Positions 55,649-61,337 of a DNA stretch of 64,000 nucleotides are shown piece by piece. The notes beneath the pieces were generated by a model. That model saw only the letters and a program-made list of their open reading frames with translations. It had not been told where the DNA came from and did not search any database. Source of the DNA: Bombella intestini. Its GTDB lineage: Bacteria; Pseudomonadota; Alphaproteobacteria; Acetobacterales; Acetobacteraceae. Position 1 is the stretch's first letter; every line of letters starts with the position of its first letter. The stretch covers positions 1 through 64,000 of the forward strand of contig NZ_JATM01000002.1 of NCBI RefSeq assembly GCF_002003665.1, in the 5' to 3' direction. Made by a program: the position numbers and the translations under genes.

Positions 55649-55735
55649 CGGGAGTGTTGTTTGCGCTTTGCCGGGGGGAACGGTAAAATCCCGCTCCGAT
55701 TTACTCCATAAAAACCTGACAGGTATCCGATACCC

Positions 55736-56785
55736 ATGCCAATGCCGATTCCTCTGCCGCCGATCACTCTGGGGCCGGGCTGCGTGATTGATGACCCCGT
55801 CATCCTCGCACCTATGTCCGGTGTTACGGATCTGCCGTTCCGCCGACTGACCAGAGAACTGGGGGCAGGGCTTGTCGTGTCGGAGATGATTGCCTCATGG
55901 GCGATAGTACGGGAGAATGAGAGAACCCTGAGCATGGCCCGCAGTGCGGGGGCTGGTGGCGTTAATGCCGTTCAATTGGCCGGGTGTGATCCGCAGGCTA
56001 TGGGTGAGGCAGCAAAGATTGCCGTGGCTGGTGGAGCAGATGTTGTCGACATCAATTTTGGCTGTCCGGTCAAAAAGGTGGCCATTGGCCAGATGGCTGG
56101 ATCATCCCTCATGAGGGATGAGCTGCTGGCCGCCCGCCTGTTAGAGGCCACCGTTAAGGCTGTGGATGTGCCTGTCACTTTGAAAATGCGGATGGGTTGG
56201 GACCATGAACATCTCAATGCCCCCACCTTGGCCCGTATTGCCGAGGATGTGGGTATCCGCCTGATTACGGTTCACGGGCGCACTCGCCAGATGTTCTATA
56301 ACGGTCATGCAGATTGGAAGTTTGTCCGTAAGGTCAAGGATGCCGTAAAGCTGCCAGTGATTGTTAATGGTGATATTGTCAGCATGGCTACGGCCCGTCA
56401 GGCATTAGCAGAGTCAGGGGCAGATGGTGTGATGGTAGGGCGTGGCTGTTACGGGCGGCCTTGGTTCCCAGCCCAGTTGGTCCAGTCCCTGCGGAGTGGT
56501 GTGGATGTGCCAGACCCCGATCTCGCCACGGAAAAAGAGATCGTTCTGAAGCATTACCACATGATGATGGATTATTTCGGCGAGCGGCCCGGCCTGCGTC
56601 TCGCCCGTAAACATGTCTCTTGGTATTCCGCCGGGCTTCCGGGTTCTGCCGCCTTCCGGGCGGAGGTGAACCGGTTGGATAGTGCTCCGGCTGTCATCAC
56701 GTTGCTAGAGCGGTTTTATGATGAAGCTATTGCTGCGGGTATCGTGCGTGACCGAGAAGGTGCCCTGGCCCGGCACGCAGCGTGA
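55736..56785 (+). CDS. dusB: tRNA-dihydrouridine synthase (DusB/NifR3 type)
   Basis: 349 residues. The FMN-binding TIM barrel begins [22 protein letters not shown]. The catalytic Cys lies in [23 protein letters not shown], followed by [18 protein letters not shown] and [17 protein letters not shown]. It reduces uridines in tRNA D-loops with NADPH. In Alphaproteobacteria this gene (nifR3) heads the ntrB-ntrC-ntrY-ntrX operon; here it runs directly into a reduced ntrC, and its stop codon overlaps that start. Confidence 0.96.
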
Positions 56786-57525
56786 TGGGCGAGCAAACGG
56801 CCCGTGAGGTCCGGGCGATGCGGCCTTTATTTCTGTATGGTGCCAGCTCGCAGGAGCGGTTGGATGTAGCGCAGCGGATTCACGCTCATAGTCCATGCTC
56901 AGAAGGGGCTTTTGTTGTTGCAGGGCTGACAGCCGTACCCCGAGCTTTGCGGGAAGAGCGGCTATTTGGCACGGCGGGTAATGGGTGGCTGGAGCAGGCC
57001 CGTGGTGGCACGTTGCTGCTGGATGAGCTGGATTGCCTATGCCCGGAACTGCAAAAGCGTTTTGCTGCCTTCTTGGCGCATAGGCCACAGGTCAAGCGGG
57101 AGGAAGCCGTGCGTATCGTGGTGGCCAGCCGCCATGATCAGGCCACGCTGCTGCGGCATGGCGGGCTGGAGGATGGTCTGAAACACTGGCTGGCCTCTCT
57201 CCCCGTGGCGCAATGTCTCGGGCCGGACCGCCTGCGGGCTGTGCGGGCTCTCTCCAGTGATCGGAACGGAGGTCTGGCAGCGATGTTCGAACCTGTCATG
57301 CGCAGTTATGTGCGGGCTGGTCTGGAAGCGGGTGGCTGCAATCTGCATGGTAGCGTGGTGGGGGCGGTGGAAAGGCCGCTTATCACTATGGCACTGCATC
57401 ATACGGGCGGGAATCAGCTTCGGGCAGCTTCCCTTCTGGGGTTGAACCGCAATACGCTGCGTAAACGCATCAAGGAACTTCACATTATCGTTCCCCGCTC
57501 CGGATCACGGTCCGGGGAGCGTTGA
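56785..57525 (+). CDS. Reduced NtrC homologue: partial AAA+ domain plus Fis-type HTH
   Basis: About 247 residues against some 470 for NtrC. There is no receiver domain. The ATPase region lacks Walker A (YGASSQERLDVAQRI where GESGTGKE is expected) and the GAFTGA sigma-54 loop is deleted (ERLFGTAGNGWLEQARGGTLLLDEL). A Walker B-like TLLLDEL and a sensor-I-like IVVASRHD remain. The C-terminus is a well-kept NtrC/Fis helix-turn-helix (VERPLITMALHHTGGNQLRAASLLGLNRNTLRKRIKEL). The start at ATG 56785 overlaps the dusB stop, leaving no room for ntrB. It probably still binds DNA but cannot work as a phosphorylated sigma-54 activator. A decaying pseudogene is the alternative, but the frame is open and intact. 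Confidence 0.85.
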   Translation: MGEQTAREVRAMRPLFLYGASSQERLDVAQRIHAHSPCSEGAFVVAGLTAVPRALREERLFGTAGNGWLEQARGGTLLLDELDCLCPELQKRFAAFLAHRPQVKREEAVRIVVASRHDQATLLRHGGLEDGLKHWLASLPVAQCLGPDRLRAVRALSSDRNGGLAAMFEPVMRSYVRAGLEAGGCNLHGSVVGAVERPLITMALHHTGGNQLRAASLLGLNRNTLRKRIKELHIIVPRSGSRSGER

Positions 57526-57539
57526 GAAGGGAAGAGATC

Positions 57540-59900
57540 GTGACGATCAGACGTCTTGCCGGCAAGATACGGGCCTCCATCGGGCGGTTGACCAGCCCCG
57601 ATGGTGTGGTGGTGCTGACAGTCATAGCATTGGTCCTTACCTTTGTGACGTTTATCGTTCTTGCGGGAGGGGTCTCTCTGGCCCGGGTGCCGAGGGCGCA
57701 GGCTCTTCTTTTTCTGCTGGATTTCATCACGCTTTTGCTTATTGCGGCTGCCGGGGTGCGGCAGATTGGCCGTATGCTCGCCGAGCGGCGCATGGGGCAG
57801 GCAGGGGCGCGGCTGCATAGTCAGCTTGTTATGCTCTTTGGTGTGGTGGCTGTAGCCCCAGCACTGATGGTAGGGGCGTTGTCCGCCCTGTTTTTCCATT
57901 ATGGTGTGGAAATCTGGTTTTCAAACCGGGTCAATACGGCTTTGAGCGAGGCCCGTTCTGTAGCGGCGGGGTATCTGCGGGAGCATAACGAGAATACGAG
58001 AACGGAAGCCTTCGCCTTGGCGAATACGCTTCTGACGGTTCAGAATGATGAGATGTTCGCTCATGGAACGGACTTGTTCCATGACCAGCCCCGCCTTCAG
58101 GCTCTTTTGGAAGATGAGGTGACGGAACGAGGGTTGAATGATGCGATCATCTTTAATCCGATCACCTACAAGATTATCGCTACGGGGGGGTTGATGGCCA
58201 TCCGGGCGGGCGACCCGGAAAAAGAACTCCCCCCTCGTTCCGTTGCTGCTATGGCTCGTACGGGTGAGGTCGTGCTGTTGGACCAGCCAGAGGCCCAGCT
58301 TGTGAGGGGTGTGGTCTCGTTAGGGGGTAATTCGGGCCTGATGCTGGTCATAACCCGGCCGGTGGACCCAGATATTCTTCATCACATGACACGAACAAAC
58401 ACGTTGGTGCAGGACTACCAGCGTATGCTCAACAACCGTGGCAAGACCCAGCTAACACTTGTCGTTATTCTGGCTTTGATGGGCTTATTAGTGCTGGCGG
58501 TGGGGATGCTCAGCGGTTTGTCCCAGGCCAATAGGATTACCCGCCCGCTTAGCCTGTTGATCTGGGCGGCACGCCGTATTTCTACAGGGGACCTGACAGC
58601 CCGGGTCCCGGTGGAGGGTCGGGGTAGCCGGGAGGATGAGCTGGTGACTCTGTCCCGCGCCTTCAACCTAATGGCCAGCCAGCTTGCCAGCCAACGCTCG
58701 GAGCTGATGTTAGCTTATGATCAGATTGATGAACGCCGCCGCTTTACGGAGACCGTTCTAGCAGGTGTTTCGGCTGGTGTGATCGGGCTAGATCATGACC
58801 AGAATCTCGAGCTTCCCAATCGGGCCGCTTCCTTCATTCTTCAGCGGGACCTAGAGGCCGCTAAGGGCCGCCCGCTCGTGGAATGTGTGCCGGAATTTGC
58901 TGAGTTGCTTCAGGCTGTTCGGGATTATCCCGGTCGAGAGCATTGTGCTGAAATTCAGATTGATACCGACAGTGCCCGTGCTCCGGGCGGGCCGGGCGGT
59001 GGTGGCGGTGCTGGGGCTGGGCGTACTTTGTCTGTATGTGCCGTGTCGGACCAGAACGGACATGAGGACACGGCGGGTTATGTTGTCACGTTTGATGACA
59101 TTACCCTGTTGCAGGTTGCCCAGCGTAAGGCCGCATGGGCGGATGTGGCCCGCCGTATTGCCCATGAGATTAAGAATCCGCTGACGCCTATTCAGTTGGC
59201 TGCGGAGCGGCTACGGCGGCGCTTCCACAAGGAAATTGTGAGTGATCCAGAAATTTACGACCAGCTTATTAGTACGATCGTTCGGCAGGTGGGCGATATT
59301 GGGCGTATGGTGGATGAGTTTTCATCTTTTGCCCGTATGCCACGGCCGGAAATGGCCGAGTATGATCTTGTTCGCCTATGCCGGGATGCCATGTTCCTCC
59401 AGCAAAACGCCCATCCAGAGATATCTTATCGGTTGGACGTTCCCGCTGGCGGGCCGGTTATGGTGCGGTGCGATCATCGCCTCATTGGTCAGTCCCTTAT
59501 CAATCTGCTACAGAATGCAGCGGATGCCATCCTGATGACAGAACGGCGTATCGGAGAGGGGCGGTCAATATTGGGTTGGATTGTCCTTAGCTTGACGCTT
59601 GAGGATGGAGCGGCAATCATTGGCGTTGCTGATAATGGTGCTGGTCTACCTGCTGGGGAGCATCAACGTCTGACCGAGCCTTATGTTACCCACAAGGAGA
59701 AGGGGACGGGGCTTGGGCTGGCTATCGTACATCGGGCGATGGAGGCTCATAAGGGGCGTCTGCATCTGCGGTCCCTGACGGAGGAGGAGCGTCAGGTGCT
59801 TGCCGGTACTGGTGAGGTGGGAACAGCTGGTACCCTGGTGGCACTGAGTTTCCCGTTGGCGGAGAAGGAGCTTGCAGCAGAGGGCGCGAGCGGAGCATGA
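57540..59900 (+). CDS. ntrY: Nitrogen-regulation sensor histidine kinase NtrY
   Basis: About 787 residues from GTG 57540 (AGAAGGGAAGAG upstream); a TTG at 57522 is less likely. Four membrane segments lie in the first 330 residues around an extracytoplasmic sensor loop, followed by HAMP (NRITRPLSLLIWAARRISTGDLTARVPV), PAS (about 410-520, with a Gly-rich insertion GGPGGGGGAGAG), DHp His in RRIAHEIKNPLTPIQLAAERLR, and HATPase (NLLQNAADAIL, VADNGAGLP, EKGTGLGLAIVHR). Its partner NtrX is next, 9 bp away. Confidence 0.95.
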   Translation: MTIRRLAGKIRASIGRLTSPDGVVVLTVIALVLTFVTFIVLAGGVSLARVPRAQALLFLLDFITLLLIAAAGVRQIGRMLAERRMGQAGARLHSQLVMLFGVVAVAPALMVGALSALFFHYGVEIWFSNRVNTALSEARSVAAGYLREHNENTRTEAFALANTLLTVQNDEMFAHGTDLFHDQPRLQALLEDEVTERGLNDAIIFNPITYKIIATGGLMAIRAGDPEKELPPRSVAAMARTGEVVLLDQPEAQLVRGVVSLGGNSGLMLVITRPVDPDILHHMTRTNTLVQDYQRMLNNRGKTQLTLVVILALMGLLVLAVGMLSGLSQANRITRPLSLLIWAARRISTGDLTARVPVEGRGSREDELVTLSRAFNLMASQLASQRSELMLAYDQIDERRRFTETVLAGVSAGVIGLDHDQNLELPNRAASFILQRDLEAAKGRPLVECVPEFAELLQAVRDYPGREHCAEIQIDTDSARAPGGPGGGGGAGAGRTLSVCAVSDQNGHEDTAGYVVTFDDITLLQVAQRKAAWADVARRIAHEIKNPLTPIQLAAERLRRRFHKEIVSDPEIYDQLISTIVRQVGDIGRMVDEFSSFARMPRPEMAEYDLVRLCRDAMFLQQNAHPEISYRLDVPAGGPVMVRCDHRLIGQSLINLLQNAADAILMTERRIGEGRSILGWIVLSLTLEDGAAIIGVADNGAGLPAGEHQRLTEPYVTHKEKGTGLGLAIVHRAMEAHKGRLHLRSLTEEERQVLAGTGEVGTAGTLVALSFPLAEKELAAEGASGA

Positions 59901-59909
59901 AGGTATCCC

Positions 59910-61337
59910 ATGGAGCATGAAATTCTGATCGTTGATGACGAGCCGGATATCCGTCTCCTGCTGGCCGGGATTCTGGAAGATGATGGTTACGTCACCTGTG
60001 GTGCTGCGGACGCAGATGCGGCCATACGGGCGTTTCGTGAGAATCGGCCTTCGTTGGTGATATTGGATATCTGGCTTCAGAATTCCCGTCTTGATGGCAT
60101 GGCTCTTCTAAGCCTGTTCCGGGAGGAGCGGCCTGATATCCCCATCATCATGATCTCCGGTCATGGAACGATCGAGACAGCCGTCTCCAGCCTGCATCAA
60201 GGGGCTTATGATTTTTTGGAGAAGCCCTTCCAGTCGGATCGTCTTCTGGTCATTGTCCGGCGTGCGTTAGAGGCCGCCCGATTGCGTAAAGAGAATGCCG
60301 AGCTGCGTTTGCGGGCTGGTGAGCAGAATACGCTCATGGGCAGCAGTGCCTTGGTGAATGCGTTGCGAGGGCAGATTAGCCGGGTGGCACCCACTAATTC
60401 CCGTGTGCTGATCAGCGGGCCAGCAGGTGTGGGCAAGGAAGTGGTAGCCCGGTTGATCCATGCTGAATCTAAAAGGGCGGAAGGCCCGTTTGTGGTGCTG
60501 AACTGCGCCGCTTTGGCCCCGGAACATCTGGAAGAGGAACTCTTCGGTGTTGAGGGGAGTGGTGACCGTCCGGGGCGTCCGGGTCTTCTGGAGCGTGCCC
60601 ATAAGGGAACTTTGCTGCTGGATGAAGTGGCGGATATGCCGCTGGAGACGCAGGGCAAGATTGTGCGGGCCTTGCAGGTCAATACGTTCGAGCGTCTCGG
60701 GGGCAGCCATAGCGTGAAGGTGGATGTCCGGGTACTGGCTACTACCAGCCGGGACCTTCAGGCTGAAATCGCTCATCGTCGCTTCCGGGAGGACCTGTAT
60801 TATCGGCTGGCCGTTGTGCCATTGCAGGTTCCGGCCCTTTCGGAGCGGCCGGAGGATATTCCGGTCATGGCACAGCATTTTCTGGAAAGTTGCGCTCGCT
60901 CTTCCGGGTTACCGCTTCGGACGCTTGCCGTGGATGCGCTGGCGTGTCTTCAAACCTATGAATGGCCGGGTAATATCCGTGAGTTGAGAAACCTGATGGA
61001 GCGGATGCTTATTCTGGCCCCTAGTGGGGATGGTGAGGCGCAAAATGTCATCCGGGCGGACATGCTACCGGAGGTCGTGCGGGAGGGTGCCCCCTCTATG
61101 ACCTGTTTGACAGCGGATGCTGACGTGATGAGCTTGCCTTTGCGGGAAGCACGAGACCAGTTCGAGACACAATATTTACAGGTCCAGCTGATGCGGTTTG
61201 GTGGTAATATCAGCCGGACAGCCAATTTTGTTTGCATGGAGCGGAGCGCCCTGCATCGTAAGCTCAAGCAGCTTGGCGTAACACAGGAAGACCGGTCTGC
61301 CGCATCATCGGAACGTGACGGGCAGGATGGGAAATGA
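59910..61337 (+). CDS. ntrX: Nitrogen-regulation response regulator NtrX
   Basis: 475 residues. The receiver domain ([18 protein letters not shown], Asp in [16 protein letters not shown], Lys in FLEKPFQ) is followed by an AAA+ domain with Walker [20 protein letters not shown] and Walker [11 protein letters not shown], and a Fis-type HTH ([29 protein letters not shown]). The GAFTGA loop is absent ([18 protein letters not shown]), which is usual for NtrX and argues against direct sigma-54 activation. It overlaps hfq by 4 nt. Confidence 0.96.

Follow-up and report, generated by a model that had tools for sequence, protein, structure and literature searches.

What remains of NtrC in Bombella, and does it still have a function? 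In the Bombella intestini DNA analysed here (the window: 64,000 nucleotides, positions 1 to 64,000 of contig NZ_JATM01000002.1), the gene order is dusB, a gene for a 246-aa NtrC derivative, ntrY and ntrX, and ntrB is missing from its usual place. The locus raises the question of whether this derivative, termed mini-NtrC below, is debris or a selected product, and what role an NtrC so reduced may have.

Locus, anatomy and genomic partners of mini-NtrC

All features described for the window lie on the forward strand. The first gene of the putative operon is dusB (nifR3, 55736..56785), which scored 376.7 bits with the NCBIfam model nifR3_yhdG (cut-off 293.3). Upstream of it, a candidate sigma70-type promoter with TTGCGC, a 17-base spacer and TAAAAT (55661..55689) was read from an alignment of eight Bombella upstream regions in which both stretches are among those conserved; the alignment leaves out 3 of the 11 Bombella genomes, which the start motif did not catch. 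The gene for mini-NtrC (56785..57525), identified by Pfam, NCBIfam, alignment and conservation, begins with an ATG that overlaps the dusB stop by one base, as it does in all 11 Bombella genomes. A length of 247 residues had been given in the first-pass annotation; this holds for an alternative in-frame GTG at 56782, but not for the ATG at 56785, from which the product has 246 aa. It is followed by the sensor kinase gene ntrY (57540..59900; NtrY_N at 3.6e-34, HAMP, HisKA and HATPase_c), for which we chose the GTG at 57540 where the ORF list gives TTG 57522, and by the response regulator gene ntrX (59910..61337; NF051870 at 671.5 bits, cut-off 600). NtrX also has no GAFTGA motif, and sigma54 contact is thus impossible for any protein of the locus.

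Pfam searches of mini-NtrC returned HTH_8 at 2.3e-13 and a partial Sigma54_activat match (PF00158, residues 13-139, 42.1 bits, cut-off 20.2), with no match to the receiver (Response_reg) or the AAA lid (AAA_lid_14). The best NCBIfam model was TIGR01818 ntrC at 91.2 bits, far under its cut-off of 558.6. When aligned with NtrC, the protein begins inside the AAA+ domain of its full-length relatives. An AAA+ core remnant without lid, delimited by PF00158 and the predicted fold, spans residues 7-152 (56803..57240). Within it, alignment with full-length NtrC places the former Walker A at residues 19-25 (56839..56859), where GESGTGK of the relatives has become GASSQER, and the site of the deleted GAFTGA loop at residues 61-69 (56965..56991), while Walker B (GTLLLDE, residues 75-81, 57007..57027) is kept. 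Since the lid is missing, the remnant directly adjoins a Fis-type DNA-binding domain at residues 160-236 (57262..57492; helix-turn-helix at about 208-232), located by PF02954, profile match and model; its profile match to E. coli Fis reached 5.5e-21. Gene order, Pfam and alignment together bear out the first-pass reading of an NtrC derivative at the dusB–ntrY locus that lacks NtrB, receiver, Walker A and GAFTGA.

That reading had also allowed the AAA+ domain only as scraps, a description that does not stand. The AlphaFold2 model (mean pLDDT 83.4, pTM 0.64) has a confidently predicted AAA+ core and four helices in its DNA-binding end, and VIA-align superposed residues 6-152 of the model on bacterial enhancer-binding AAA+ domains with Z ~15, so that an alpha/beta core is predicted to fold even with the lid missing. 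Among 13 reduced sequences from several genera, W68, E81, D83 and W135 of the remnant are among the invariant residues, and the catalytic Walker B aspartate is variable.

The Bombella intestini genome (2.02 Mb, estimated completeness 100%) holds no second NtrC, as all six of its PF00158 matches are accounted for by NtrX, mini-NtrC, ClpA (twice, in one frame), ClpB and a ClpB-like protein. No NtrB was seen among its seven HisKA matches, one of which is NtrY; the other six are closest to PhoR, CopS (two), CckA, EspC and ChvG. None of these six exceeded a curated cut-off, and the NtrB model was absent among the matches listed for them (for two of them, the best 25 families). RpoN was found in none of the 11 Bombella genomes, although control genomes do give matches, and PII was found in all 11. 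Acetic acid bacteria that live with bees, in food or on flowers thus lack a standard NtrBC switch yet retain PII and NtrYX. Without receiver and NtrB, mini-NtrC has no switching by phosphorylation; without P-loop, its use of ATP is not expected; and without GAFTGA loop or genomic RpoN, activation of sigma54 promoters is impossible. Taken together, the loss of switch, fuel site and sigma54 contact in organisms without RpoN excludes activation of the NtrC type.

Selection and reduced NtrC in Acetobacteraceae

The mini-NtrC frame is open in all 11 Bombella genomes, B. intestini included, at 243-256 codons (the 256-aa form, in G006, is an intact ORF), a conservation that excludes chance. Median dN/dS within Bombella was 0.048 for the AAA+ remnant (23 of 55 pairs with usable dS) and 0.040 for the DNA-binding part (22 of 55), compared with 0.038 for dusB and 0.041 for ntrY (21 of 55 each). 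These are Nei-Gojobori (NG86) values for pairs in the usable dS range, and the pairs are not independent; 7 of the 11 genomes taken alone gave 0.035 and 0.037. Both halves of mini-NtrC are constrained as tightly as dusB and ntrY. Beyond Bombella, g78 (Gluconobacter/Neokomagataea) gave 0.061 for the N-part (13 of 78 pairs) and 0.029 for the DNA-binding part (18 of 78), and g109 gave 0.047 for the DNA-binding part (13 of 21 pairs), with just 1 of 21 pairs usable for the N-part. Full-length NtrC across g55, g84 and g97 gave 0.17 and 0.2 (10 of 21 pairs each), above the values for the reduced forms, but these pairs are intergeneric and near saturation and were therefore not used as a yardstick.

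A dN/dS of about 0.04 in both parts removes the reading of mini-NtrC as a pseudogene, and likewise the reading that only the helix-turn-helix matters. The term vestigial used in the first-pass annotation does not fit a protein under strong purifying selection on both parts, while its statement that the frame is intact and its suggestion that the gene is not debris are confirmed, as is the purifying selection that it had asked about for the helix-turn-helix. It had further named the DNA-binding part as the best conserved; this part is indeed the least changed against distant relatives, but within Bombella the AAA+ remnant is equally constrained. Full-length ntrBC was not found elsewhere in the genome and evolution is not neutral, the two circumstances on which a plain pseudogene had been made to depend.

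The reduced form is shared by relatives, a clade of acetic acid bacteria. Among 61 dissected Acetobacteraceae loci, 22 with ntrB and 39 without, a Pfam receiver was found in all 22 NtrC proteins at loci with ntrB and in 0 of 39 at loci without, while HTH_8 was present in 39/39 and 21/22, respectively, the single exception being interrupted by a stretch of N. The joint loss of ntrB and receiver fits one contiguous deletion. The AAA lid was matched in 14 of the 39 reduced proteins compared to 21 of the 22 full-length ones, the P-loop regex matched 4 of the 39, and the exact GAFTGA motif was present in none of them. In a tree of DusB, NtrY and NtrX, the 39 reduced loci form one clade with SH-aLRT 94 and require one change (shuffled mean 18); in a wider tree, the node joining this clade and genome G081 was unresolved. 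A scan of named genomes found the reduced form in Bombella, Saccharibacter, Gluconobacter, Neokomagataea and strain ESL0709, and ntrB with a long NtrC in four species of Acetobacter, Novacetimonas hansenii and Roseomonas rubea. Reduced proteins of ~300-350 aa keep the lid and sometimes the P-loop, those of the Bombella/Saccharibacter/Gluconobacter branch (226-277 aa) have neither, and the protein of G035, with 95 aa, is the DNA-binding domain alone and of Fis size.

In the three-protein tree, the branch immediately outside the reduced clade is G081, which keeps ntrB and a 531-aa NtrC. In its NtrB the H-box HE has become RG (the histidine is retained in 21 of the 22 NtrB proteins), and in its NtrC the Walker A K has become R and the Walker B DE has become AN, with the DNA-binding domain intact. 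From these substitutions, G081 appears to be a living intermediate of NtrC decay. The GAFTGA-type loop is gone in 10 of the 22 NtrC proteins at loci with ntrB, two of them (G398 and G081) in genomes with RpoN. Scored as GAF[TSA]GA, the loop was present in nine and absent from two RpoN-positive genomes, and present in three and absent from eight RpoN-negative ones, where RpoN absence means not among the 325 matches listed; these counts disregard kinship, and one of the three RpoN-negative loop keepers, G126, is 79% complete. Loop loss and RpoN absence thus tend to co-occur among the 22 ntrB genomes. A perfect GAFTGA was also seen in G167, although RpoN was not found there. Loss of RpoN as the cause of NtrC reduction was rejected, as 21 of the 39 genomes with reduced NtrC, and 8 of 12 with a Fis-sized protein (below), have RpoN.

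At the g109 loci L102 (G334), L107 (G353) and L103 (G314), some NtrC, dusB or ntrX frames were broken. The NtrC frames of G334 and G353 are shorter, and dusB or ntrX frames close to them are split; assembly errors may be the cause, with recent decay as the alternative. No match to the NtrC DNA-binding domain was obtained in G063, G149, G099 and G241 (1.7-2.1 Mb), which amounts to complete loss, and no close copy covering 80% of mini-NtrC was found among 72,556 plasmid records. A decaying pseudogene or annotation relic in Bombella might be argued from these four small Acetobacteraceae genomes, from the two further truncated g109 loci and from the loss of most defining motifs, but with dN/dS of ~0.04 and 11 of 11 frames open with an identical one-base dusB overlap it is very improbable.

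Fis-sized proteins between dusB and ntrY

Outside Acetobacteraceae, at least 14 alphaproteobacterial loci carry a Fis-sized protein between dusB and ntrY, such as the 93- and 99-aa proteins of the Alphaproteobacteria MAG loci L235 and L225. Two of the 14 came from the named-genome scan, five from short frames, and the remaining seven from among the matches listed by a search across 385 genomes of the class, 295 of which matched. Directly upstream lies dusB and downstream ntrY in all 14 loci (the dusB of L225 is cut by a contig end), and ntrX is present in 13; G494 and G743, with a Fis-sized frame at a contig end, were dropped. A 72-locus tree that included 13 of these loci and G035 counted six changes for the loss of ntrB, at least four of them required by starred branches, with some weak placements close to the root; this tree left out L271, where ntrX was not found, and eight other loci without one of the three genes.

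The L235 protein was predicted to be Fis-shaped, its best 31 Foldseek rows being Fis chains at 41-48% identity, while its identity to the DNA-binding ends of alphaproteobacterial NtrC reaches up to 61%, which favours an origin in place over import of a gammaproteobacterial fis gene. When full-length NtrC from G019 was taken as a control, its DNA-binding end also had E. coli Fis as best PDB match (1.3e-16), indicating that Fis-likeness is ancestral and does not discriminate. The Fis-like domain was accordingly rejected as an indicator of recent evolution toward Fis.

Two further sets of proteins were observed in the course of this comparison. The alphaproteobacterial MAG loci L214, L216 and L226 have ntrB and a 469-478-aa NtrC with no P-loop match and no GAFTGA, and these NtrC proteins are possible further intermediates. 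Nitrospira-type genomes (L196, L199, L201, L203, L207, L208, L212, L213 and L218) have 190-260-aa proteins with a Fis-type end, whose N-part, in those read (L196, L203 and L218), resembles an eroded receiver; dusB was not found next to these genes.

The history of mini-NtrC may be pictured as follows. The sigma54 loop would have been lost first. Kinase and ATPase residues would then have decayed, a state seen in G081, before a single deletion removed ntrB plus receiver. Finally, P-loop and lid would have disappeared in the Bombella/Saccharibacter/Gluconobacter branch, and the entire AAA+ part in G035. The textbook nucleoid protein Fis bends DNA and stimulates site-specific recombination, and its origin from NtrC has so far been inferred from sequence similarity; Morett and Bork reportedly proposed in 1998 that Fis arose from NtrC at nifR3/dusB. 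The reduction series matches this proposal and makes it testable. We regard the chances as even that Alphaproteobacteria re-made Fis from NtrC in place several times, with ntrB-ntrC cut independently to give dusB-fis-ntrY-ntrX operons, in which case the protein of the window would be a selected half-way form, that of G081 an earlier one, and the enterobacterial dusB-fis one product of a recurrent route. The related loci suggest that mini-NtrC is one step in a recurrent reduction toward Fis, which the first-pass annotation had not foreseen.

The steps are visible as living genes: full NtrBC, NtrBC with dead catalytic residues, receiver-less NtrC, mini-NtrC and Fis-sized proteins, all within one bacterial class and partly within one family. 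A bench question is thereby opened, namely at which step a phosphorylation-driven activator becomes a constitutive DNA-binding protein, and whether its sites stay. Among the open-access full texts searched, a scope that mostly excludes subscription journals, no title dealt with dusB-fis-ntrYX loci or with an NtrC of acetic acid bacteria that lacks its receiver.

Role of mini-NtrC and known systems

Given the losses described above, we consider it somewhat more probable than its converse that mini-NtrC is a stable, selected product of NtrC reduction that acts as a constitutive, Fis-type and presumably dimeric DNA-binding protein with an ATP-dead AAA+ scaffold, serving as a repressor or architectural co-regulator at sigma70 promoters. 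Its dose would be set by the dusB operon, the ATP-dead core would serve as scaffold, and the protein would bind inherited NtrC-type sites at sigma70 promoters, with the glnK-amtB promoter as first candidate. This role finds support in a study of Caulobacter (PMC10274813), whose NtrC lacks GAFTGA, acts as both activator and repressor at sigma70 promoters and has a ChIP-seq motif related to the Fis motif; ntrC alleles without REC or AAA yield stable proteins there and impair growth more severely than the null does. In a second Caulobacter study (PMC12421884), individual domains of NtrC were shown to be capable of activity by themselves. Such behaviour favours a constitutive repressor or architectural protein as the likeliest role, as already suggested in the first-pass annotation. 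Since NtrC of Caulobacter and R. capsulatus needs phosphorylation of the receiver aspartate and ATP binding for activation (PMC10274813), repression or architecture is proposed for mini-NtrC. Against a bare DNA-binding role stands the AAA+ remnant, whose constraint, as strong as that of the DNA-binding part, it leaves unexplained, though G035 has lost the remnant.

A candidate site for mini-NtrC lies outside the window before glnK-amtB (G000:C8:211916-211935), where alignment and pattern scan located a conserved element (loci L253-L263, L316-L321 and L332-L336). An alignment of ten Bombella genomes has 42 of 45 bases invariant over this stretch before glnK-amtB, versus 59 of 145 in the remaining intergenic region. 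The core TCGTTATGAANNTGGCACGA was found at no more than one mismatch in 11/11 Bombella genomes, G018, G032, G035, 5/5 g109 genomes and one Saccharibacter, but in only 6 of 18 further reduced-NtrC genomes and in 0 of 22 genomes with ntrB or without any NtrC. G019 has a full NtrBC pair as well as RpoN, and 78 bases upstream of its glnK there is a complete sigma54 promoter, TGGCACGAAAATTGC. By comparison with this one genome, a lead only, the reduced clade would seem to retain a -24-like half and to have lost the -12 half. As a regulon motif the element was rejected: the six genomes scanned each gave one strong match (at most one mismatch), which yields no regulon, and matches at two to three mismatches equalled those of a reversed control pattern.

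Other roles would give more weight to the remnant or to the DNA-binding domain. Mini-NtrC could be a helper of NtrYX, its AAA+ remnant co-assembling with NtrX and either adding a second DNA-binding arm or poisoning oligomers. The reduced NtrC stands directly before ntrY and ntrX at all 39 dissected loci, NtrX likewise lacks GAFTGA, and a protein-protein role would suit an AAA+ core that has lost its ATP site but retains a conserved surface (E81, D83, W68 and W135); the Fis-sized proteins in this position lack the AAA+ part altogether, however, and we regard this role as unlikely. Mini-NtrC may also act on the nucleoid globally in the manner of Fis, without any particular connection to nitrogen, which the Fis-like DNA-binding domain would suit. 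In enterobacteria, fis belongs to the dusB operon (PMC7482072), and in Caulobacter many of the NtrC sites overlap with sites of the nucleoid protein GapR (PMC10274813). The DNA-binding parts of full-length NtrC are equally Fis-like, and the conserved glnK element would suggest specific sites, making this role a slightly weaker candidate. The ATP-dead core could finally be a small-molecule pocket, making mini-NtrC a one-component ligand sensor. FleQ and VpsR bind c-di-GMP on an AAA+ fold. Strong selection acts on the remnant, whose predicted fold resembles those of FleQ and VpsR, among other AAA+ domains; since this match is general to AAA+ and the core is missing in the Fis-sized relatives, such a sensor is the least probable of the three. 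The constitutive DNA-binding protein proposed above can be compared with several known systems.

With NtrC (NR(I)), mini-NtrC shares its place between dusB and ntrY, the Fis-type DNA-binding domain and the AAA+ core fold, but it has no receiver, Walker A, GAFTGA, lid, NtrB or genomic RpoN, and falls far under the TIGR01818 cut-off. With VpsR, FleQ and VspR it has in common an AAA+ fold in a regulator uncoupled from sigma54. VpsR and FleQ work without sigma54 or without ATP hydrolysis, and all three are longer than mini-NtrC, keep more architecture and bind known ligands. VspR is named as an enhancer-binding relative free of sigma54 or ATP hydrolysis in the Caulobacter study (PMC10274813). The GAFTGA-less NtrC of Caulobacter and Rhodobacter capsulatus likewise has no sigma54 contact loop, and action at sigma70 promoters is expected for mini-NtrC as well; theirs keep receiver and ATP site, as described in the same study (PMC10274813), whereas mini-NtrC has neither. 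With Fis of gammaproteobacteria (dusB-fis), finally, it shares a gene position directly after dusB and a four-helix DNA-binding domain. Fis is a single domain of ~98 residues, whereas mini-NtrC, at 246 aa, retains an AAA+ remnant of 150 residues and has ntrYX downstream; among the loci examined, Fis size is reached only by the 95-aa protein of G035 and at the 14 or more loci outside the family.
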